In this document: piece after piece, positions 20,262 through 33,611 of the stretch
Layout: the number at the start of each line of letters is the position of its first letter
Numbering within the stretch: the stretch's first letter is position 1
Assembly (NCBI GenBank): GCA_028713555.1
Contig: JAQTOA010000002.1
Span: 1 to 64,000 of the forward strand
Source of the DNA: Sterolibacterium sp.
GTDB lineage: Bacteria; Pseudomonadota; Gammaproteobacteria; Burkholderiales; Rhodocyclaceae
Reading direction: 5' to 3'
DNA: 64,000 nt
Program-made: the position numbers and the translations under genes
The notes under the pieces: generated by a model
Told to the model about the DNA's origin: nothing
Database searches by the model: none
The model's input: only the letters and a program-made list of their open reading frames with translations

Positions 20262-21593
20262 TCAGTCGTCGCCCTTTCTCTGTATGCCGTAGCGTTTCAT
20301 TCTTTCCCACATGTTCTTGCGACTGATGCCCAGGGTTTCGGCAGCGTGCGTGACGTGGCCATTGTGAGCGGCGAGCACGCGTGATATGTATTGCCGTTCG
20401 AAGTTGTTCAGGTGCTCAGCCAGGGTTTCGTTGGTTGCGGGCAGTGCCAAAGGCATTTCTTCAAACAACGACTCGGGAAGTAATTGACGTTTCTCGCTGA
20501 GCACGCAAGCCCGCTCGAGTGCATGCTTCAATTCACGAACATTTCCAGGCCAGACATTATCCAGCATCAAACGCTCAAGCTTTGCCGACATGAATCGAGG
20601 CGCACCGCCTCGCACCGCCGCTTCCTCTTCGAGAAATTGTCTGGCAAGCCAAAGAATGTCTTCCTTGCGGTCGCGCAGTGGCGGTATGTACAAATGAACC
20701 ACGTTGATGCGGTAATACAAATCCTCGCGGAACTCTCTGTTCTCCACCATTTGCTTCAGATCGCGATGGGTGGCGCAGATCAGTCGCAGACTGACCTGCA
20801 GGGGATGCTCGCCGCCGATCCGGGTAATACACCGCTCCTGGATAGCTCGCAACAGACGAATCTGCATCGACTGCGACATGTCGCCGACTTCATCGAGGAG
20901 CAGAGTGCCGCCGTTGGCTTGCTCGAACACTCCCTTGTGCATTCTTACGGCTCCAGTGAAAGCCCCTTTTTCGAAGCCAAACAACTCGGCTTCGAGAAGG
21001 CTATCGGCAAAGGCGCCGCAATTCACCGCCACAAAGGGGCGTTCGACATCCTTGTTGCCGCGCAGGTGCAATTCACGCGCCACCATCTCTTTGCCGACCC
21101 CCGATTCACCACTGATCAGCACGTTGCTAGTGCTGCCGCCAATTTTATCCAGCATGGATTCGAGCGTGCGCATTGCTGGAGAAATGCCGAGTTTTGGTTG
21201 CCGGTCTCGTGCCATCGGTGCCGTCACCAGGGAACCAATTTTTTCCAGCAAGGTTTCGATATCGAAAGGCTTCTTAATGTAGTCGGCAGCGCCAAGCTTG
21301 AGCAGACGAACCGCCTGGTCGATTTCGCCGTAACCGGTAATGAACAGGTAGGGGGGCAGCGGTACGGCTTCTTCGAGCAGCGCCATGTAGAGCTTTTCGC
21401 CCGACATGTCGGGCAAACGGATGTCGCTGATGACTACATCGAACTGGCGCCGCGGCAAGGTGAGCAGCGCCTCGCGGCCAGTACGAAACCAGGTGCAATC
21501 GTAGTTCTCAAGCTCGAAACGCTCGACCAGCGCGTCGCCGACGATGTCGTCGTCTTCAATCAGGCAAAGATGCAGCTTGGCGGCTACGCTCAT
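20262..21593 (-). CDS. Sigma54-dependent response regulator (ArxR/AioR-like)
   Basis: 443 residues. Receiver with phospho-acceptor D57 in FDVVISDIRLPDMSG; intact AAA+ domain with LISGESGVGKEMVARELH (Walker A), FGFEKGAFTGAVRMHKG (sigma54-contacting GAFTGA loop) and LLLDEVGDMS (Walker B); C-terminal Fis-type HTH HAAETLGISRKNMWERMKRY. The ORF track extends it falsely upstream; ATG 21593 overlaps the end of the kinase gene. With the kinase and PhnD-like protein it forms an X-S-R system like AioXSR/ArxXSR, which control arsenite/arsenate enzymes. Expected to bind the palindromes at 23.9-24.0 kb and drive the sigma54 promoter of arrA. Specific role is inference from context. Confidence 0.85.
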   Translation of the reverse strand: MSVAAKLHLCLIEDDDIVGDALVERFELENYDCTWFRTGREALLTLPRRQFDVVISDIRLPDMSGEKLYMALLEEAVPLPPYLFITGYGEIDQAVRLLKLGAADYIKKPFDIETLLEKIGSLVTAPMARDRQPKLGISPAMRTLESMLDKIGGSTSNVLISGESGVGKEMVARELHLRGNKDVERPFVAVNCGAFADSLLEAELFGFEKGAFTGAVRMHKGVFEQANGGTLLLDEVGDMSQSMQIRLLRAIQERCITRIGGEHPLQVSLRLICATHRDLKQMVENREFREDLYYRINVVHLYIPPLRDRKEDILWLARQFLEEEAAVRGGAPRFMSAKLERLMLDNVWPGNVRELKHALERACVLSEKRQLLPESLFEEMPLALPATNETLAEHLNNFERQYISRVLAAHNGHVTHAAETLGISRKNMWERMKRYGIQRKGDD

Positions 21594-23050
21594 GACAAAG
21601 TTTTGAGCGGCAAGTTGACTGAGAACCGGGTCATGCTTTCCCCCTCTCGCATGGCACTGTGCACGGTAATGTTGCCCCCCAACTGTTTGACGATCTGATA
21701 GCAGACCCAAAGTCCGAGGCCCCGACCCGTTTCGCCGGCATTGATGAATGGCTCGAACAGATGCTCGGTCTGGGACTCGGTCAACATCTTGCCGCCATTG
21801 ACGATTTCGAAAGACAAGGTTTCGTCTAACTGTGCAATATTGACTTGCACGGCGCCGCCCTCGTCGGTTGCCTGAACAGCATTGAGAATCAGGTTGATCA
21901 ACACCTGTCGTACCAGAGTAGAAGGCAATGGTACAGATATTTCCAGATCGCTCTGCCAAGTCACGCTCACACTGCGCTTGTGCGCCTGGGGGGCAATCAG
22001 GGTGCGCAAATCGTCGACGTCTTGGGGTGAGAGGTCGCGGCTGTTAACCTTCGCTTCGACCAACAGCGCGGCTACGGTCTCCTTGATTTGGGTAAGTCCT
22101 CTTTCCAGCAAGTTCAAGGTCCGCGTGGTGCGGGCATCGGGTTCGCCGTGATGACGCAGGGTATTAATCGAGGTCAGCATGCCGAGTAAGGGATTGTTGA
22201 TTTCGTGAGCGATGCCGGCAGCCAGCCGGCCCAGTGCCACCAAGCGTTCCGAATGAATGACTTCCCGCTCGATCAGCGTTTTCTCGCGTAATTGCTGAAG
22301 GGTTCTGTTGTAGGCATGGAACAGGCGCCCTAGTTCATCCTGATAATCGTAGATTTGTGTCGGTAACTCGGCTGGCAGGCTACGTCCGAGCTGCTCCATG
22401 CGTTCTGTCAGGCGCAGCAACGGCGTTGCGGTACGTTGCCCCCAGTACCAGTTGATCGGCAGCAATACCGAAAGAACCAGGAAGGTCACCCAGGCTGCTT
22501 TCTCGGCACTTTCGAGAAAGCGCGGCAACAGTATCTTCTTGGAGTAAATTTGTAGTAGCGTGCCTAGCCGCGTTTGTTCGTCGATGATCGGCGTGGCGAC
22601 AAACAAATAGTCCGATCCCTCCGGCTCGAATACGGCGGTGTCCTTGCCCAGGCCGGCGATGTCAGATGCAATGCCGGCATGCTCGGCCGACAATTGGCGA
22701 AAATCGGCGAGCATCGGCATTGTTTCCGGGCGTGTCGAGACATACACCTGCAACTTTGGATCGAGTACCAGCAAACTTTCCGCCCGCACCGGATTTTCCT
22801 GGGAGGCACCACGCAGTGGCGCCCTGATCAATTCGTAAGCGTGCCAAACATGATCCTGCAAAATTGCCGGCACCAGAGTATGCGCCATGGTTTCCCCTTG
22901 CGTCGTCGCATTGCGCAGCAGATCGCGTTCAAGATCGTGATAGGCGCCGAAGATCAGGGTGGAGGAAATGATCAGCGCCGTGGCGACGATCAGGAAACCT
23001 CCCCACAAAGGAATCTTGTAGCGAAAACTCAGGTTGAAGATGCCGCGCAT
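21590..23050 (-). CDS. Membrane sensor histidine kinase (ArxS/AioS-like)
   Basis: About 486 residues. Two membrane helices (about 13-35 and 190-210) bracket a periplasmic domain of ~150 residues; a HAMP-like linker follows, then HisKA with H in GRLAAGIAHEINNPLLGMLT and HATPase_c (LINLILNAVQATDE, GRGLGLWVCYQIVKQLGG). The ORF track reads through the upstream gene in another frame; the true start is one of two tandem ATGs at 23053/23050, overlapping the stop of the binding-protein gene, with GCGAGG upstream favouring 23050. Likely receives its signal from the periplasmic protein encoded immediately before it and phosphorylates the regulator encoded after it. Confidence 0.85.
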   Translation of the reverse strand: MRGIFNLSFRYKIPLWGGFLIVATALIISSTLIFGAYHDLERDLLRNATTQGETMAHTLVPAILQDHVWHAYELIRAPLRGASQENPVRAESLLVLDPKLQVYVSTRPETMPMLADFRQLSAEHAGIASDIAGLGKDTAVFEPEGSDYLFVATPIIDEQTRLGTLLQIYSKKILLPRFLESAEKAAWVTFLVLSVLLPINWYWGQRTATPLLRLTERMEQLGRSLPAELPTQIYDYQDELGRLFHAYNRTLQQLREKTLIEREVIHSERLVALGRLAAGIAHEINNPLLGMLTSINTLRHHGEPDARTTRTLNLLERGLTQIKETVAALLVEAKVNSRDLSPQDVDDLRTLIAPQAHKRSVSVTWQSDLEISVPLPSTLVRQVLINLILNAVQATDEGGAVQVNIAQLDETLSFEIVNGGKMLTESQTEHLFEPFINAGETGRGLGLWVCYQIVKQLGGNITVHSAMREGESMTRFSVNLPLKTLS

Positions 23051-23898
23051 CATTCCTCGCCAAACTCGCCCATCATCTTGGTGACCAACGCATAGAGCCT
23101 GGGATCGCCCGCGATAAAGCCATCCAGATTTAACCGCTGGAGAAGTGACTTGCCTTGGGGATCGGTGCTCATTGCCAGTAGCATCCCTTGCATGGCGGCA
23201 AAACTCTCCTTGGAAACAGATCGATGGGCGACGAAAGGAGGAAAGCCGTATTCGGGCGATTGATTCACCACCCAGGTGCGGCGCGTAATATCCGACTTGA
23301 CCTTGTTCAAACTGTCCCAGACAAAACTGTCCACCGAACCACCCTGCGCCAAGCCGTCTGCGACGGCCTCGATCAGCTTCCGGTGAGAATAGGTGAAAAA
23401 TGTGCGGCTGAAAAACCTTCCCGGATCTTCTCCCGCCATCCGCAGTTGATAGCGTGGAACAAGATAACCGGTGTTGGAATAGGGGTCTGAGTAGGCAAAG
23501 ATCTTGCCTCGAAGTTCCAGCAAACTGTTGGCATGAGGCAATTGCGCCGGAACGATCAGGTAGGCGCGGTAGTACGGACGTCCCTGGAACACCGGTACGG
23601 CCAGCAGGCGAACCTGCTCGCGCAAATGAACGTAGGGGTAGTCGCAGATCCAGGCGAAGTCGATTTTTTCCAGTCGCAGCAAATCCATGGTTTCGCGATA
23701 GCTGTCGCGTTGCAGGAATTGGACCCGCTGCAGCAACTTGGCTTCCATATACTGACGCCACGCTTCCAGCGTGCCGTGCTGGTCGTGCAGAAAAGCCGGC
23801 GTCAGACCGATACGGACTGGACGCCCGGGAACCAAGGCCAGCGCCGGCGTCAGCGCCAGGCTGGCACAGGCGCCGAGAAACAGTCGGCGTGTCGGCAT
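23050..23898 (-). CDS. PhnD-like periplasmic binding protein (ArxX/AioX-like)
   Basis: 282 residues with a signal peptide (MPTRRLFLGACASLALTPAL). PhnD-family (phosphonate/phosphite-type) solute-binding fold: PVRIGLTPAFL at the mature start, IDFAWICDYPYVHLREQV (C85), YSDPYSNTGYLVPRYQL and SVDSFVWDSLNKVK. No ABC permease or ATPase is nearby; it is fused by overlap to a kinase and sigma54 regulator, the arrangement of AioX/ArxX, where the protein is a sensor not a transporter and a cysteine in the equivalent region is required for arsenite binding in AioX. C85 is a candidate. Strong ribosome site AAGGAGG. Divergent from arrA. Confidence 0.8.
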   Translation of the reverse strand: MPTRRLFLGACASLALTPALALVPGRPVRIGLTPAFLHDQHGTLEAWRQYMEAKLLQRVQFLQRDSYRETMDLLRLEKIDFAWICDYPYVHLREQVRLLAVPVFQGRPYYRAYLIVPAQLPHANSLLELRGKIFAYSDPYSNTGYLVPRYQLRMAGEDPGRFFSRTFFTYSHRKLIEAVADGLAQGGSVDSFVWDSLNKVKSDITRRTWVVNQSPEYGFPPFVAHRSVSKESFAAMQGMLLAMSTDPQGKSLLQRLNLDGFIAGDPRLYALVTKMMGEFGEE

Positions 23899-23919
23899 GG
23901 TATTCCCTCCTTATCAATT

Positions 23920-23935
23920 GTTACCTTTCGGTAGC
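23920..23935. promoter_or_regulatory. Upstream activator palindrome 1
   Basis: GTTACCTTTCGGTAGC, an imperfect match to the perfect palindromes at 23972 and 24013 (one arm mismatch). It lies 22 bases upstream of the PhnD-like sensor start, so the same regulator may autoregulate its own operon. An extra half site GTTACC lies at 23955. Confidence 0.6.
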
Positions 23936-23971
23936 AAGTTACCGTCGCATCGGCGTTACCTTTGGTTTTAT

Positions 23972-23987
23972 GCTACCTGAAGGTAGC
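23972..23987. promoter_or_regulatory. Upstream activator palindrome 2
   Basis: GCTACCTGAAGGTAGC: seven-base arms around a two-base centre. Centre about 52 bases from palindrome 1 and 41 from palindrome 3, that is near-helical multiples, and 170-190 bases upstream of the -24/-12 element, the usual place for sigma54 enhancer sites. Confidence 0.7.
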
Positions 23988-24012
23988 AATTATGAGCTGA
24001 AATCCAGTTTTT

Positions 24013-24028
24013 GCTACCTTAAGGTAGC
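24013..24028. promoter_or_regulatory. Upstream activator palindrome 3
   Basis: GCTACCTTAAGGTAGC, a perfect 16-base palindrome. Same motif as palindromes 1 and 2. About 122 bases upstream of the start of the -24/-12 element of arrA. Confidence 0.7.
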
Positions 24029-24052
24029 GATTTATTGCATGCGTCCAGTGAA

Positions 24053-24071
24053 TTGATGCTTCATGCATCAA
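24053..24071. promoter_or_regulatory. Second type of inverted repeat in the arrA promoter
   Basis: TTGATGC-TTCAT-GCATCAA, perfect seven-base arms. It resembles an FNR-like half-site pair (TTGAT/ATCAA) but the spacing is nine not four, so a standard FNR box is not claimed. It lies between the activator palindromes and the sigma54 promoter and could bind another regulator, for example the Crp/Fnr-family protein of this operon. Confidence 0.4.
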
Positions 24072-24149
24072 TCATGCCTTCGCAGCGCTTGCCCGGAGAC
24101 TGCCTGTTGGCGCGCTAACAGCCGTGAAGTGGCGAATAAATCTGCCCCA

Positions 24150-24165
24150 TGGCCTGCTTTTTGCA
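24150..24165 (+). promoter_or_regulatory. Sigma54 -24/-12 promoter of the arr operon
   Basis: TGGCCTGCTTTTTGCA matches the sigma54 consensus TGGCACGNNNNTTGCW: GG and GC are separated by exactly ten bases. Transcription would start near 24177, leaving a leader of about 95 bases before arrA. It fits the adjacent sigma54 activator and the three upstream palindromes. Confidence 0.75.
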
Positions 24166-24270
24166 GGAAGAGTTCGGGAATGGGGTGGCACCTATCGCCC
24201 GCGAAAACTTCAAGAGCATTGTCGAAAACGAGTTCCAAATTTTGATTTTGTATAAAGAGGAGTCCTCCAT

Positions 24271-26817
24271 ATGAAACTGACGAGACGGGAATTTCTTACG
24301 GCCTCGGTTGCCACGGGCGCATTGGCTGCTGCGGGCGGTCTGGCTAGCGGGTTGGCCATGGCGGCGCCGAAAACCAGTGCCTTGGCCGTGCGTAATGCAC
24401 AGGCCGCCGGCCCGGCCAAAGGCAGTTGGGTGGCCAGCACTTGCCAAGGCTGCACCCAATGGTGCGCGATCCAGATCTTCGTCGAAGAGGGCCGCGCGGT
24501 ACGCGTGCGCGGCAATGCGCTTTCCAAGTGCAACCATGGTTATGTCTGTCCGCGCGGCCACCTGATCCCGCAGCAAACCTACGATCCGGACCGCATCAAG
24601 GTGCCGATGAAGCGCACCAATCCCCTCAAGGGCCGCGGCATCGATCCGAAGTTCGTCCCGATCACCTGGGACGAGGCGATCAACATCGTCGCCGACAAGA
24701 TGATCGAGTTGCGCACAGCCGGCGAACCCGAGAAGCTGCTCTATCTGCGCGGCCGCTATTCGAACACCTCCACCGAACTGCTCTATGGCACGCTGCCCAG
24801 GGTCTTTGGCACTGGCAACTACTTCTCGCACAGCGCCATCTGCGCCGAGGCCGAGAAAATGGGCCCGGGCATGACGCAAGGTTTCGCTGGCTACCGTGAC
24901 TACGACCTCGAGAAGACCAACTGCCTGGTGCTTTGGGGTACCGACCCGCTGGCCTCCAATCGGCAAGTACCGAACACGATTCGCCGCTTCGGCGAGATTC
25001 TCGCGCGCGGCAAGGTGATCGCGGTCGATCCGCGCCTGTCTAATGTTGCGGCCAAGGCCCACGAATGGCTTCCGGTCAAACCCGGCACCGACGGCGCGCT
25101 GGCCGGCGCCATCGCCCACGTAATTCTCACCGAAGGCCTGTGGAACAAGGAGTTCGTCGGCGACTTCAAGGAGGGCAAGAACCTCTTCGTCGCCGGCAAG
25201 GAAGTCTCGGCGGACGCCTTCGCCGAAAAAGAAACCTCCGGCCTCGTCAAGTGGTGGAACCTCGAGCTCAAGGACCGCACCGCGGCCTTTGGCGAGAAGG
25301 AATCCGGTATCCCCGCCGCGCAGATCGTGCGCGTCGCCCGCGCCATGGGCAAGGCCGCACCCAAGACCGCCGTCTGGATGGGCCCCGGCGCCGCGATGTG
25401 GCCGCGTGGCACCTATGCCGCAATGGCGGTGTACGCGCTGAATGGCTTGCTGGGTTCGATCGATGTCGAAGGCGGCGTCTGGGAAAGCGCCAGTAGTCCC
25501 CATCTGGCAAAGTTCCCCAGCATCGACAAGTTCATCGATGAAGTGGCGAAGAAAGGCTACAAGGGGCACGCGACCAGCAACCGCGGCCACAAGGACATGC
25601 CGGGCTTCATGACCGCTTCGATCAACAACGTGCCCAACGAACTGTTGAAGAAACCCGACGCGATCAAGGTGGTGCTTTCCACTTGGAGCAACTTCAACCA
25701 TTCGGCCACCGGCGCCGACCGCTGGAACCAGGCGATGGCCAAGGTGCCCTTCTTCGCCCACATGGTAACCAATGCCTCGGAACTGACCCAGTTCGCCGAC
25801 ATCGTGCTGCCCGCAACCCATAATACCTCCGAGGGTTGGTCGATCGTCACCAACATGTCCAACGGCTATGCCTACGCCTCGATCCAGCAGAACCCGATCA
25901 AGCGCGTGTTCGACACCAAGCAGGAAGAAACCGAAGTCATGTGGCTGCTGGCGCAGAAGTTGAAAGCCAAGGGCTTCCCCAATCTGGCCGATTACTACGA
26001 TACGATCAAGGATCCCGAGACCGGCAAGTCGGCGACCAGCGAGCTGGAATTTGCCGAGTTCGCCGCCAAGTTCACCAGCGCGCCGATCTGGGATGGCAAG
26101 GAAGTGCCCAAAGGCGACGAGCCGATCAAGGGCTGGGGCGAGTTCAAAGCCAAGGGTATGTTCCACGGCCCGCGCTACACCCTCAAGAAAAACTGGGGCG
26201 GCAAGTTCAAGACCGAGACCAAGAAGTTCGAGTTCTACAGCGAAACGCTGAAGAAGAAACTGGCCGAGCACGCCAAGAAGAACGAGACCACCACCGACGA
26301 TGTCCTCACCGTCAGCGGCTACACCGCGCGCGGCGATCTTGCCTTCGTGCCGCATTACGAGGTGCCCAAGCGCCATGGCAGTTTCGAGGAATACCCGTTC
26401 ACCTTTGTAGACTACAAGTCGCGCCTGAACCGCGAGGGCCGTTCGCAGAACTTGCCTTGGTACAACGAGTTCAAAAAGGTCGATCCGGGCGATGTTTCCT
26501 GGAACGACGTGCTGAGGATGAACCCGGCCGACGGCGCCAAGCTGGGCCTGAAGACGGGCGACAAGGTGAAGATCACCTCGCCGACGGGAGCCATCGTCGT
26601 CGATCTCAGGTTGTGGGAAGGCGTGCGCCCCGGCACGGTGAGCAAGTGCTACGGCCAGGGACACTGGGCCTATGGCCGCGTTGCCGCCAAGGACTACGCC
26701 AAGGCGGAGCCGCGCGGCGGCAACAACAACGAGATCCTGGTCGACGACTACGATCGCTTGAGCGGCGCCACGGCCCGCAATGGCGGGTTCGTCGGCGTCA
26801 AGATCGAGAAAGCCTGA
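24271..26817 (+). CDS. arrA: Respiratory arsenate reductase catalytic subunit (ArrA/ArxA clade)
   Basis: 848-residue periplasmic molybdopterin enzyme reducing arsenate to arsenite (or, if ArxA, oxidising arsenite). Twin-arginine signal TRREFLTASVATGALAAAGG. One [4Fe-4S] site: C58-x2-C61-x3-C65-x27-C93. Mo ligand C191 in FSHSAICAEAEKMG. Residues corresponding to the arsenate pocket described for Shewanella ArrA are present: R162-Y163, S188, K196, Y208. The C-terminal half keeps family blocks VDYKSRLNREGRSQNLPWYN and CYGQGHWAYGR. The exact ArrA-versus-ArxA split needs a tree; no NrfD-type membrane subunit or second Fe-S subunit gene is present, which favours Arr. Start preceded by AGAGGAG. First gene of the operon with arrB, torD, tatA. 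Confidence 0.85.
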   Translation: MKLTRREFLTASVATGALAAAGGLASGLAMAAPKTSALAVRNAQAAGPAKGSWVASTCQGCTQWCAIQIFVEEGRAVRVRGNALSKCNHGYVCPRGHLIPQQTYDPDRIKVPMKRTNPLKGRGIDPKFVPITWDEAINIVADKMIELRTAGEPEKLLYLRGRYSNTSTELLYGTLPRVFGTGNYFSHSAICAEAEKMGPGMTQGFAGYRDYDLEKTNCLVLWGTDPLASNRQVPNTIRRFGEILARGKVIAVDPRLSNVAAKAHEWLPVKPGTDGALAGAIAHVILTEGLWNKEFVGDFKEGKNLFVAGKEVSADAFAEKETSGLVKWWNLELKDRTAAFGEKESGIPAAQIVRVARAMGKAAPKTAVWMGPGAAMWPRGTYAAMAVYALNGLLGSIDVEGGVWESASSPHLAKFPSIDKFIDEVAKKGYKGHATSNRGHKDMPGFMTASINNVPNELLKKPDAIKVVLSTWSNFNHSATGADRWNQAMAKVPFFAHMVTNASELTQFADIVLPATHNTSEGWSIVTNMSNGYAYASIQQNPIKRVFDTKQEETEVMWLLAQKLKAKGFPNLADYYDTIKDPETGKSATSELEFAEFAAKFTSAPIWDGKEVPKGDEPIKGWGEFKAKGMFHGPRYTLKKNWGGKFKTETKKFEFYSETLKKKLAEHAKKNETTTDDVLTVSGYTARGDLAFVPHYEVPKRHGSFEEYPFTFVDYKSRLNREGRSQNLPWYNEFKKVDPGDVSWNDVLRMNPADGAKLGLKTGDKVKITSPTGAIVVDLRLWEGVRPGTVSKCYGQGHWAYGRVAAKDYAKAEPRGGNNNEILVDDYDRLSGATARNGGFVGVKIEKA

Positions 26818-26848: not shown

Positions 26849-27619
26849 ATGCCTAAATATGGAATGGTCATCGACCTTCAGAAATGTGTTGGCTGCGGAA
26901 CTTGCGCACTGGCCTGCAAAGCCGAAAACAACACCCGCAACCGTGCCGACGGTCAGAGCCACAATTTTGCCGACTTCCTGATGAAGACCGAAGGGGTCTT
27001 TCCGAAAGCGGTGCAGACGGCGATGCCGGTGCTCTGCAACCACTGCACCGACGCGCCCTGCGTCAAGAACTGTCCGGTCGAACCGAAGGCGATGTTCAAG
27101 ACACCGGAAGGCATCACCATGCACGACAACGAGCGCTGCATCGGCTGTCGCATGTGCCAGAACTCATGTCCTTACAGCCACGCCGAACTCGACAACACCA
27201 GCCTCAGCGGCGGCAGCTACAGCGTGATCAGCTTCAACGCCAAGGGTAAAGATACTCAGCCCTTCTGGACCGACAAGACCGAAATGATTCCAGGGTGCAC
27301 CGCTTCCGGGGCCGAGACCGCCAAGAAAGCCGGCGCAGAGACGCCTGCTTTCAACGCGTTTGCCGGAGGGGATGTCAAGCCGATTCGCCGGGCAGGAGTG
27401 GTCGAGAAATGTACCTTGTGCTATCACCGCATCAGCAACGGCCTGCAGCCGGCCTGCGTCGAGGCTTGCCCGGCCAAGGCGCGCATCTTCGGCGACCAGG
27501 CCGATCCGCAAGCGGAAATCGCGAAAGTGCTTAAGGCGCAGAAGCCGTTCCGCTTGCAGGAAAACAAGAAGACCCGCCCGAACGTATCTTACGTCGGGAA
27601 ATACAGCGCCAGGGCCTGA
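26849..27619 (+). CDS. arrB: Arsenate reductase iron-sulfur subunit
   Basis: 256 residues, ferredoxin-like electron-transfer subunit with four cysteine clusters: CVGCGTCALAC (13-23), CNHCTDAPCVKNC, CIGCRMCQNSC and CTLCYH..CVEACPAKA, fit to carry four [4Fe-4S] centres passing electrons between quinol-derived donors and ArrA. No Tat signal of its own, so it should be exported as a complex with ArrA. Directly follows arrA (31 bases) with AAGGAG upstream. An insertion of about 45 residues between clusters three and four (DKTEMIPGCTASGAE..) makes it somewhat longer than the ~234 residues I recall for ArrB. Confidence 0.85.
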   Translation: MPKYGMVIDLQKCVGCGTCALACKAENNTRNRADGQSHNFADFLMKTEGVFPKAVQTAMPVLCNHCTDAPCVKNCPVEPKAMFKTPEGITMHDNERCIGCRMCQNSCPYSHAELDNTSLSGGSYSVISFNAKGKDTQPFWTDKTEMIPGCTASGAETAKKAGAETPAFNAFAGGDVKPIRRAGVVEKCTLCYHRISNGLQPACVEACPAKARIFGDQADPQAEIAKVLKAQKPFRLQENKKTRPNVSYVGKYSARA

Positions 27620-27692: not shown

Positions 27693-28319
27693 ATGCCAAA
27701 CTACGACCTCGACAAGGGACGCGCCCGCGAAGACCTCTGCCGTTATCTGGCGGCCTGCTATTACCAGCCGGGCCCAGAATTCTCGGAAGAAAAAGTGTTC
27801 GATTCGATGCTCGCTGCCGCGACTTGCCTCCATCCGGACCTCGCCGCTTGCGCACGCCGGCTGGGCGAGGAATTTTCCGCGGAAAGCGCGGAGGACCTGC
27901 TGCTCGATTACACCCGGCTTTTCCTCGGCCCCAACCATATCATCGCCAAGCCCTACGGCTCGGTATGGCTGGAACAGCAAGAGACCCTGATGGGGGAATC
28001 GACGCTGGCGATGCTGGCGCTATACAAGGAAGGCGGCTTCGAGATGGACGAGACATTCCGCGAACTGCCCGACCACATCGCCGCCGAGCTGGAGTTTCTT
28101 TACTTGCTGATCTTCCGCGAAAACGAAGCGCACCACCAGGGCAAGCTGGAAGCGCAAGAGGCCAAGGCCGCGCTGCGCAAGCGTTTTCTCGACGAACATC
28201 TCGGCCGCTGGGTCGGACCCTTCACGGCAGCCGTCAAGGACGGCGCACAAAGCAATTATTACCGGCAGCTTGCCGAACTCACCGACAGATTCATCAACAT
28301 GGAAGCCAACAAAGACTGA
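27693..28319 (+). CDS. arrD: TorD-family molybdoenzyme chaperone
   Basis: 208-residue all-helical cytosolic protein of the TorD/DmsD family, which binds the Tat signal peptide and apo-enzyme until the Mo cofactor is inserted. Family features visible: YLAACYYQPGPEFSEE near the N-terminus, YTRLFLGPNHIIAKPYGSVW (the Y-x-x-L-F-x-G-P..P-Y-x-S motif, about 66-88) and LPDHIAAELEFLYLL (D-H-x-x-x-E-L). The ORF track begins far upstream in an arrB-overlapping extension; ATG 27693 gives the natural N-terminus, with GGA 19 bases upstream being weak. Its position after arrB makes arrA its client. Confidence 0.85.
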   Translation: MPNYDLDKGRAREDLCRYLAACYYQPGPEFSEEKVFDSMLAAATCLHPDLAACARRLGEEFSAESAEDLLLDYTRLFLGPNHIIAKPYGSVWLEQQETLMGESTLAMLALYKEGGFEMDETFRELPDHIAAELEFLYLLIFRENEAHHQGKLEAQEAKAALRKRFLDEHLGRWVGPFTAAVKDGAQSNYYRQLAELTDRFINMEANKD

Positions 28320-28349: not shown

Positions 28350-28562
28350 ATGGGAACCATGAGTATCTGGCATTGGCTAGTTGTCTTGGTTATTGTCATG
28401 CTGGTGTTTGGCACCAAGAAACTGCGGTCTGTCGGCGCCGACCTCGGTGGCGCGGTCAAGGGTTTCAAGGAAGGCATGGCCGAGGCTGCGGTGGAACATG
28501 GTGCCGGACAAGCTTCTCCTGAGACTGTTCGTCAGTCGATCGAAGCCAAACTCCGTCAATGA
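28350..28562 (+). CDS. tatA: Twin-arginine translocase subunit TatA/E
   Basis: 70 residues: one N-terminal membrane helix ([20 protein letters not shown]), the FGTKKLR hinge and an amphipathic helix ([15 protein letters not shown]), the standard TatA/TatE layout. TatA multimers form the export pore for folded cofactor proteins. Strong AGGAGGA upstream. No tatB or tatC here, so it must join a core TatBC encoded elsewhere, perhaps giving extra capacity for ArrAB. It overlaps the start of the Crp/Fnr gene by four bases (ATGA). Confidence 0.9.
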
Positions 28563-29338
28563 CCGTGCAGTTGTCGGAAGCATCTTGCACCAGCTCAGGT
28601 GCGGCAAATTCCGTGCTTTTGGCGTTCACGAGCAAGACTGCACGCCAAATACGCGGCTATGGCGAATGCTTTCCTTGCGCATTGCTATTGGCGGAAGCAC
28701 CTCCTGAACAGCATGCTGATTTCGATGCGCTGGTTCATGACCAAGACTTCGGGCATTCCGAAGTTCTATACCGTGCCACGGCACCGGTCGATGCGGTGCA
28801 TTTCATCCAGATGGGCGCCGTAAAACTGGTGAGGACTGGGCCTACTGGCGAGCAGCGCATTGTCAGAGTGCTCAAGACCGGAGACTCCGCCGGAACTGAG
28901 TCAATCTTCTCGCAAACTTACGAACACACGGCAATCGCGCTTGGTGATGTGCGTGTCTGTAGCATCCCTGTAGCCTTGTTCCTCAAGTTAGTCGCCGGAT
29001 CCGGGCGAACACAAATGTGGTTGCTACAGAAATCGCTGACGGCACTAAACGATGTAGAAACCTGGCTTTTACAGTTGGCAGGTGGCTCAGTATCATCCCG
29101 CGTTCGTATTGCACGGTTGATGTTGAAGCTATGTGCTGACAACGAAGGCCACATCCACCGGTTGCCTCTCAAGGAAATGGGCGCCATCGTTGGCTTGGTG
29201 GAGGAAACGGTGTGCCGGGTTATTTCCGAATTCGACCGCCAGGGAATTATCGCTAAAGATGGTAGCGGTAGCGTTTTTGGCCAGCGCTATTTCCGCGGCA
29301 ATATACCGGCGCTGAAGAAAATCGCCCATGAACCTTGA
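28559..29338 (+). CDS. Crp/Fnr-family transcriptional regulator
   Basis: 259 residues. Cyclic-nucleotide-like beta-roll (about 60-160: [37 protein letters not shown]) and a C-terminal winged HTH ([33 protein letters not shown]). The N-terminal part has C10 and a CxxC pair, C37/C40 (GECFPCALL), reminiscent of but not identical to the FNR cluster cysteines, so redox or metalloid sensing is possible. The first ~35 residues may be non-native: the ATG overlaps tatA by four bases but later starts cannot be excluded. Encoded inside the arr operon, so a feedback or anaerobic controller of these genes is likely by context. Confidence 0.8.
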
Positions 29339-30764: not shown

Positions 30765-32294
30765 ATGTTGAAGAACCTGCGCATCGGCGTGCGTCTTGCC
30801 ATCGGCTTTGGCCTCGCCTTGCTGGCCATGGCTTTTATCGCCGGATTGGGCTACAACCGCATCAGCGTCCTCAACGGCCAGATGGCGATCCTTGCCAAGG
30901 ACCGTTTTCCCAAGACGGTCTGGGCGAACGACATCATCGGTTCCATCAACGTCATGGCCCGAGCCACGCGGAATACCCTGCTGATCAAGAAGGAGGCCGA
31001 TATCCGCAAGGAAATGGAGCGTATTCCGGTCGAACGGAAAACCATCGACGACCGGATAGAAAAACTGGACAAGACCATCAATAGCGCAAAGGGCAAGGAG
31101 CTTCTCCAGAAGCTTAAAGACGCCCGCGCCGCCTACCTCACCAACCAGGAGAAGCTGCTGGAGCTCGCCCGACAAGGCAAGCGCGACGAGGCAACGGACT
31201 TCATGGTCGGCGAATTCCGCAAGTACCAGAACCCGTTTTTCGCGGCGGCGGGTGATCTCATCAAGTACCAAGGTGAGCAAATGGATGAAGCCTGCTGCGC
31301 GGCCGAGAACATGACCGAGACCGCCCTCAGCCTGTTGCTTGGCATCTCCATTGCCGCCCTGGTCGCCGTGCTCGGCTTCGCCTACTGGGTAACGCGCAGC
31401 ATCACCAGGCCGCTCAATCAGGCAGTTAACGCAGCCGACGCATTGGCGCAGGGCAACCTGACGGTCAAGATCGAGATCGACTCGAAAGACGAGACCGGTC
31501 AATTGAAGCAGTCAATGAGCAACATGGTCGGCAAACTCACCCATATCATCGGCGAAGTGAATACCGCCTCTGACGCCCTCAACAACGCCGCCGGACAAGT
31601 CTCGCAAACCGCCCAGTCGCTATCGCAAGCTTCCTCCGAGCAGGCCGCCAGTATCGAAGAGACCACCGCCAGCATCGAACAAATGACCGCCAGCATCAAC
31701 CAGAACACCGAGAACGCCAAGGTCACCGACGGCATGGCCAGCAAATCCGCGACCGAAGCCACCGAAGGCGGCAGCGCGGTCAATGAAACCGTCGCGGCCA
31801 TGAAGCAAATCGCCGGCAAGATCGGCATCATCGACGACATCGCCTACCAGACCAACCTCCTGGCCCTGAATGCCGCCATCGAAGCCGCTAGAGCCGGCGA
31901 GCACGGCAAGGGCTTCGCGGTGGTCGCCGCAGAAGTGCGCAAATTGGCCGAGCGCAGCCAGATCGCCGCGCAAGAGATCGGCCAACTCGCCAGCAGCAGC
32001 GTCGCCGTGGCCGAGCAGGCCGGCAAGTTGCTCGACACCATGGTGCCATCGATCAAGAAAACCTCCGACCTGGTGCGGGAAATAGCCGCCGCCTCGCAGG
32101 AGCAGTCGAACGGCGTCGGTCAGATCAATAGCGCGATGGGCCAGTTGAACCAGGCCACCCAGCAGAACGCCTCGGCCTCAGAGGAGTTAGCTGCGACCGC
32201 TGAGGAAATGAGCGGCCAGTCGGAGCAACTCACCTCCTTGATGTCCTTCTTCAAGATCAATCAGGAACAAGACGCGGCGCGAGGTTCAAGATAG
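30765..32294 (+). CDS. Methyl-accepting chemotaxis protein with 4-helix-bundle sensor
   Basis: 509 residues. Helix at 10-30, periplasmic four-helix bundle (about 31-186), second helix 187-208 ([20 protein letters not shown]), HAMP ([20 protein letters not shown]) and the signalling domain with hairpin tip [27 protein letters not shown]. No C-terminal NWETF tether. A vicinal Cys-Cys pair at 177-178 ([11 protein letters not shown]) sits just outside the membrane before helix two; vicinal thiols bind As(III), so arsenic taxis is a reasonable but untested idea given the neighbours. AGAGAAGG upstream. Encoded between arr-moaA and the second X-S sensor cluster. Confidence 0.9.
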
Positions 32295-32675: not shown

Positions 32676-33611
32676 ATGAAATTGACGAAGCGGTGGTTAA
32701 TTCCGGTATCGGCGGTCCTGGTGGCAGCGGCGCTAGCGGCACTGTATTGGTTCGGGCGGGGAGAGACGATTTCCCGCCAAGTAAATATGGCTGAGGTGGC
32801 GAAGAGCGAGACTGGGCCACGGCCGGAAGCAGTGTTGCGGATAGCGGTGGCTTCGATGATCTCCCCCAAGGAGACCGAAAACAGCTATTTCGACTTGCTG
32901 CGTCTTGTCGGTCGGCATGTGGGTCATGAGGTAAGCTTCGTTCAGCGCAAGACCTATGCCGAAGTCAATGAACTGCTGGAGCGCCGCGAGATCGATCTGG
33001 CCTTTGTATGCTCCGGCCCTTACGTCGATGGGCACGAGCGCTTCGGCATGGAGTTGCTCGCTGTGCCGGTAGTGCATGGCGGCATGGTTTACCATTCCTA
33101 TTTCATCGTTCGCCGCGATGCCCCCATCAAGGATTTGGAGGGGTTGCGCGGAAGACGTTTCGCCTTCACCGATCCCAACTCCAACACCGGCTATCTAGTA
33201 CCTACCTACGTGCTGAGCCGCCGGGGCGAAACTCCCAAGAGCTTCTTTGGCGAAACGTTCTTCACCAACAGCCACGACAACTCCATCAAAGCGGTGGCAG
33301 ACGGCTTGGCTGACGGTGCCGCCGTGGATTCGCTGATCTGGGAGTACATCAACGCCACCAAGCCGGCCGATACGGCGCGCACCCGTATCATCGACAAGTC
33401 GCCGCCCTACGGCATCCCTCCGATTGTGATACATCCGGCGCTAAACCCGGAATTCAAACAACAGTTGCGCGAGGTGTTTCTGCATCTGCATGAAGATCCT
33501 CAAGCCACTGCCTTGCTGAAGAACATCCAGATCGAGCGCTTCGCCGTGGGCAACGATGCCATGTACGACTCTGTACGCCAAATGCAGCACGAGTTGAAGG
33601 AGAAGCGGTGA
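32676..33611 (+). CDS. Second PhnD-like periplasmic/membrane-anchored binding protein
   Basis: 311 residues. N-terminal helix (LIPVSAVLVAAALAALYWFG) acts as an anchor or uncleaved signal; then the PhnD-type fold: VLRIAVASMISPKETENSYF, REIDLAFVCSGPYVDGHERF (C112), FTDPNSNTGYLVPTYVLSRR, FFTNSHDNSIKAVADGLADG. Cousin of the sensor at 23 kb, with the cysteine at the same place in the fold (AWICDYPYV there, AFVCSGPYV here). Its stop overlaps the start of a large kinase gene and there are no transporter genes, so it is again predicted to be a sensory partner. Ligand unknown; arsenite, arsenate, phosphite or phosphonate are possible. Confidence 0.8.
   Translation: MKLTKRWLIPVSAVLVAAALAALYWFGRGETISRQVNMAEVAKSETGPRPEAVLRIAVASMISPKETENSYFDLLRLVGRHVGHEVSFVQRKTYAEVNELLERREIDLAFVCSGPYVDGHERFGMELLAVPVVHGGMVYHSYFIVRRDAPIKDLEGLRGRRFAFTDPNSNTGYLVPTYVLSRRGETPKSFFGETFFTNSHDNSIKAVADGLADGAAVDSLIWEYINATKPADTARTRIIDKSPPYGIPPIVIHPALNPEFKQQLREVFLHLHEDPQATALLKNIQIERFAVGNDAMYDSVRQMQHELKEKR

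Follow-up and report, generated by a model that had tools for sequence, protein, structure and literature searches.

Predicted AioR/ArxR-type sigma54 enhancer control of an arsenate-reductase operon in a divergent arrXSR/arrABD locus

A sigma54 enhancer circuit of the AioR/ArxR type very probably drives the arsenate-reductase operon in the divergent arrXSR/arrABD locus of the window (the whole stretch of 64,000 nucleotides that was analysed); DNA binding, phosphorylation, promoter use, ligand and autoregulation are the predicted parts of this reading. The two gene sets are separated by a gap of 372 bp (positions 23899-24270) holding three palindromic boxes and a putative promoter. This gap had been called a complete control region in a preliminary description of the DNA, a term that stands as a prediction. 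The genes and the DNA elements observed are the following:

20262-21593, minus strand: arrR, response regulator with receiver, AAA+ sigma54-interaction and Fis-type HTH domains (Pfam PF00072, PF00158, PF02954)
21590-23050, minus strand: arrS, histidine kinase with HAMP, HisKA and HATPase_c domains
23050-23898, minus strand: arrX, periplasmic oxyanion-binding protein of the AioX/ArxX type (PF12974, pocket residues, AioX-like loop, tree)
23920-23935, strandless: box 1, GTTACCTTTCGGTAGC, adjoining arrX
23938-23943, plus strand: extra half-site GTTACC between boxes 1 and 2
23955-23960, plus strand: extra half-site GTTACC between boxes 1 and 2
23972-23987, strandless: box 2, GCTACCTGAAGGTAGC, exact copy of GCTACCTNNAGGTAGC
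24013-24028, strandless: box 3, GCTACCTTAAGGTAGC, exact copy of GCTACCTNNAGGTAGC
24150-24165, plus strand: sigma54-type -24/-12 promoter candidate, TGGCCTGCTTTTTGCA
24271-26817, plus strand: arrA, molybdoenzyme catalytic subunit with RGRY motif (NCBIfam ArrA model, PDB 6cz7)
26849-27619, plus strand: arrB, iron-sulphur subunit (NF041715 ArrB, 232.7 bits, under the cutoff of 450)
27693-28319, plus strand: arrD, TorD-type chaperone (PF02613)

Judged from its sequence, the arrA product is an ArrA-type respiratory arsenate reductase of predicted activity. The NCBIfam ArrA model spanned the full protein at 1000.8 bits, which is under its cutoff of 1600, and the next-best family scored 237.8. The closest solved chain was ArrA 6cz7. 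The protein contains the motif LRGRYSNTS; published motif classes are (R/K)GRY for ArrA versus XGRGWG for ArxA, and the ArxA of locus L090, used for comparison, has GRGWG. The earlier assignment of the genes to arsenate respiration was therefore kept on the strength of the RGRY motif and the nearest solved chain, despite the score below the NCBIfam cutoff. A reading as ArxA was dropped on account of the same motif, the absence of arxC and arxB2, and the weak resemblance to Sulfuricella ArxA, with which it shares 39% and 27% identity over two separate pieces.

The divergent set had been said to encode a sigma54 activator with an intact GAFTGA motif, and the translation of arrR bore this out. 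ArrR joins a receiver, an AAA+ domain with GAFTGA and a Fis-type HTH, and is encoded together with X and S genes, as is characteristic of AioR/ArxR-type sigma54 activators. Its HTH helix reads ISRKNMWERM. In the tree the window ArrR, ArxR and AioR fell into one group of 22 rows with a support of 100/100, apart from more distant arr regulators; the window ArrR paired with that of L033 inside a clade of Arr/Arx regulators. An rpoN gene is present in the same genome assembly, which comprises 3.07 Mb at 80% completeness, and all genome-wide counts refer to this assembly.

Each box is 16 bp long, and the box starts are 52 and 41 bp apart, the same distances as originally given for the palindromes. 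Three palindromes of one type had been described at 23920, 23972 and 24013. All three positions held, with boxes 2 and 3 as exact copies, while box 1 was imperfect with two mismatches to the pattern proposed. When up to three mismatches were allowed, the window contained 7 matches versus 1.29 expected, and none of 100 shuffles attained 7. Exactly three copies of GYTACCNNNNGGTARC (GYTACC-N4-GGTARC) occurred in the 3.07-Mb assembly, every one in the arr gap, and a control search with the reversed pattern gave no copies. Two or more extra GTTACC half-sites, overlooked earlier, are expected by chance with a probability of about 3e-5; those at 23938 and 23955 are possibly decayed or weak sites. The half-sites at 23920, 23938, 23955 and 23972 follow each other in steps of 17-18 bp. 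Box 3 scores as a terminator-like hairpin; this reading was discounted, since box 3 belongs with the other two copies to a box type that recurs in other loci and goes with the regulator. Between box 3 and the promoter candidate lies a perfect 8-bp inverted repeat, ATTGATGC-N5-GCATCAAT (window 24052-24072). A gene for a methyl-accepting chemotaxis protein is located near the arr operon (window 30765-32294), comparable to the mcp near aio in Agrobacterium GW4; no box was found upstream of it, as all three genome copies sit in the arr gap.

In the promoter candidate TGGCCTGCTTTTTGCA, GG at 24151-24152 and GC at 24163-24164 are separated by exactly ten bases, in agreement with the GG-N10-GC spacing reported before, and TGGC and TTGC elements are present. 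No other plus-strand site in the 64 kb has this score; the minus strand has one, which lies inside a gene. For the 400 bp upstream of arrA its p value was about 0.005 (mononucleotide shuffles). With the C of GC taken as -12, transcription is predicted to start at about 24176, so that the box centres would lie at about -156, -197 and -249. Two of them are thus within the 80-200 bases upstream that had been named for the enhancer sites, and the third is outside. A search for a minus-strand sigma54 promoter of arrX gave just the weak site AGGCATGATTGATGCA (24079, score 8).

The same box was conserved beside related regulators. The relatives comprised 80 arrA loci from a scan of one genome per species. 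XSR genes of roughly 42-66% identity adjoin arrABD in mostly betaproteobacterial loci, usually divergently, and in Desulfobacterota and Nitrospirota more distant XSR-like sets precede arrA in the same orientation. The upstream regions of the mostly betaproteobacterial set hold GTTACC-N4-GGTAAC or near forms, often paired 52 or 41-44 bp apart. When all 5-mer gapped palindromes were ranked de novo in 12 arr loci with XSR genes, the window being excluded, GTTAC-N6-GTAAC came first (11 of 12 loci); in shuffled sequences no palindrome occurred in more than three loci. Among the other arr loci it was present in 7 of 64 (p 6e-8), and in six of these seven the ArrR is more distant and has a helix of the same type. 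The search of related arr promoters that had been suggested thus recovered the same 16-bp class, which goes with the presence of XSR and in several loci is spaced by 52 or 41 bp.

Sigma54-like sites often came after the boxes. Upstream of arrA they were enriched in loci with an RK-helix ArrR relative to the remaining arr loci (Mann-Whitney p 1e-4). The combined p for these RK-helix loci, without the window, was 2e-12, a value to be read with the non-independence of related loci in mind. At L049 and L057 a longer operon, with arrABD as its last genes, starts with boxes and a sigma54-like site; in L049 its first genes are those for a multihaem cytochrome c and a cytochrome b. Some observations weigh against the circuit. 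The -12 element is CGC instead of TGC in the L010 group. A third box downstream of the putative sigma54 site, near the arrA start, was seen at L010:5002-5017 and at equivalent positions in L011-L017. No exact box was found in the RK-helix loci L055, L059, L079, L085 and L094, and no sigma54-like site upstream of arrA in the RK-helix loci L033, L055, L059, L077 and L079. The exact box of L090 falls within an annotated gene, and the copy between genes carries a mismatch.

Box 1 begins 22 bp from the arrX start codon. This distance had been given correctly in the preliminary description; the gene concerned encodes the periplasmic binding protein ArrX and not the kinase. In L014, XSR is located about 6 kb from arrA with a separate 52-bp box pair on each side, and in L083 and L084 a box and a sigma54-like site accompany X as well as A, with TGGCCTGCAATTTGCA as the putative promoter of X. 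These arrangements support control of both operons by ArrR at the three loci and suggest autoregulation more than the 22-bp distance does. For the window ArrR we infer autoregulation. One L014 pair is also upstream of a divergent operon coding for PAS-GGDEF-type proteins, the second being upstream of arrA (L014:2122-7573).

The base pattern of the boxes followed the recognition helix. In DNase I footprinting, AioR of Agrobacterium GW4 covers GTTCGGATTTCCGAAC; the 16-bp consensus of its box is GTT-N10-AAC (PMC5335332). With the same length and layout, box 1 has the ends GTT..AGC and boxes 2 and 3 GCT..AGC, one outer base per arm being changed; exact GTT-N10-AAC ends occur in boxes of relatives. 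The window box is probably a form of the documented AioR box and not a wholly new motif, the general box reading G[TC]TAC-N6-GTA[AG]C and the window variant GCTACC..GGTAGC. The aio promoters of NT-26 and Agrobacterium (plasmid collection) carry GTTCG-N6-CGAAC. The helix SRTTLWEKM of alphaproteobacterial AioR occurred with TCG boxes, and [ST]RK[NT]LWEKM or near forms of Arr and Arx regulators with TAC boxes. Exact TAC boxes between genes were present in 23 of 30 RK-helix loci versus 0 of 12 others (p 4.6e-6; intergenic assignment was by hand and many loci are kin, p being about 3e-4 with clades collapsed). L042 encodes one regulator of each helix kind, with the matching box near each.

According to the proposed circuit, ArrX would take an arsenic oxyanion in the periplasm and activate the kinase ArrS, which would phosphorylate ArrR. 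Dimers of phosphorylated ArrR would then occupy the three boxes from about the same side of the DNA, and the AAA+ domain would open sigma54 RNA polymerase at TGGCCTGCTTTTTGCA, which lies some 130 bp beyond box 3, thereby switching on arrABD. From box 1, ArrR would probably adjust its own operon too.

It is improbable that the boxes bind ArrR while a sigma70-type promoter serves arrA and TGGCCTGCTTTTTGCA matches by chance. In favour of this, at L042:4883-5719 an arr-linked ArrR-like regulator has a receiver and an RKNLWEKM helix, lacks the AAA+ domain and lies beside a GTTAC-N6-GTAAC box; no sigma54-like site was found upstream of arrA in this single case, so the box can exist without sigma54. 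No RpoN promoter was detected for Chrysiogenes arrAB either (PMC5908839). However, the AAA+ domain of the window ArrR is intact with GAFTGA, no sigma70-like site was found in the gap 23899-24270, and the low p value of TGGCCTGCTTTTTGCA and the recurrence of sigma54-like sites in relatives argue against a chance match. Even less probable is that the palindromes bind another regulator, such as an ArsR protein or the CRP-like protein encoded in the operon region (28559-29338), and that ArrR binds elsewhere. Presence of the CRP-like gene is in favour of this, but box length and ends match the AioR footprint (PMC5335332), and box type tracks the ArrR helix and XSR presence across loci, including the one with both regulator types and both boxes.

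The locus raises the question of whether the inducer is arsenate or arsenite. An otherwise unchanged circuit responding to arsenite, the product of the enzyme, is a substantial possibility, the sensor module being of the ArxX/AioX type. The ArrX loop PAFLHDQ is hydrophobic as in AioX (PVFLSND), the conserved Cys is present, and in the tree ArrX grouped with ArxX/AioX, apart from PhnD-like sensors adjoining deltaproteobacterial arr genes. Arsenite is the ligand of AioX and ArxX, and arsenate that of Chrysiogenes ArrX, whose loop is shorter and more polar (PMC5908839); the likeness of the window loop to arsenite sensors thus suggests that arsenite might be the signal. On the other hand, position 56 of ArrX is Ala and not Val, pocket residues alone do not fix specificity, and every sensor tested bound the substrate of its own enzyme (PMC5908839), a caution that keeps arsenite sensing hypothetical. 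A second PhnD-like sensor protein (PF12974) is encoded at window 32676-33611, followed by a large gene for a PAS-domain kinase; unlike ArrX, it is similar in both loop and tree position to the sensors that adjoin arr genes in Desulfobacterota and other phyla.

The control layout of these arr genes is already known for arsenite-oxidising genes. Among the nearest known systems, AioXSR-aioBA of Agrobacterium and Rhizobium NT-26 shares with the window the XSR trio, an AtoC-family regulator and the layout of a 16-bp box, there GTT-N10-AAC, upstream of a sigma54-type promoter (PMC5335332; PMC6011840); unlike in the window, arsenite oxidase is controlled, the inner bases are TCG and not TAC, and the helix is SRTT and not SRKN. 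ArxXSR-arxB2ABCD of Alkalilimnicola, Azoarcus and Sulfuricella has the divergent XSR layout, TAC-class boxes in or near L090 and L091, and, in Sulfuricella, an ArxX and an ArxR that are 65% and 55% identical to the window proteins, but it controls ArxA (GRGWG) and includes arxC and arxB2, which the window locus is without. In Chrysiogenes arsenatis the arr genes likewise adjoin XSR genes, whereas ArrR is CitB-like and lacks AAA+, a search upstream of arrAB revealed no RpoN promoter, and the ArrX loop is shorter and polar (PMC5908839). The groups for which Badilla et al. (2018) reported arrXSR are Firmicutes, Epsilonproteobacteria and Chrysiogenetes, without Betaproteobacteria. In the open-licence papers searched no description of this box for arr operons was found, and among them an AioR/ArxR-type circuit on an arr operon is apparently unreported for Betaproteobacteria.

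Arsenate respiration mobilises arsenic in sediments and groundwater. The papers found say little on the switching of arr operons beyond a few models, and the locus offers a readable candidate circuit in a betaproteobacterium. As the same DNA mark lies beside matching regulators in relatives from several phyla, the circuit is directly testable. The part that exceeds the known AioR/ArxR kind is the relation of helix to box. It is tentatively proposed that arsenic XSR regulators of several phyla follow a code across arr, arx and aio, in which K-N/S/T versus T-T after SR corresponds to TAC versus TCG, and that the window ArrR (RKNM) accepts GCT..AGC and serves a product-induced operon. With such a box-and-helix rule, XSR control of an arr, arx or aio operon would be predictable from its sequence.
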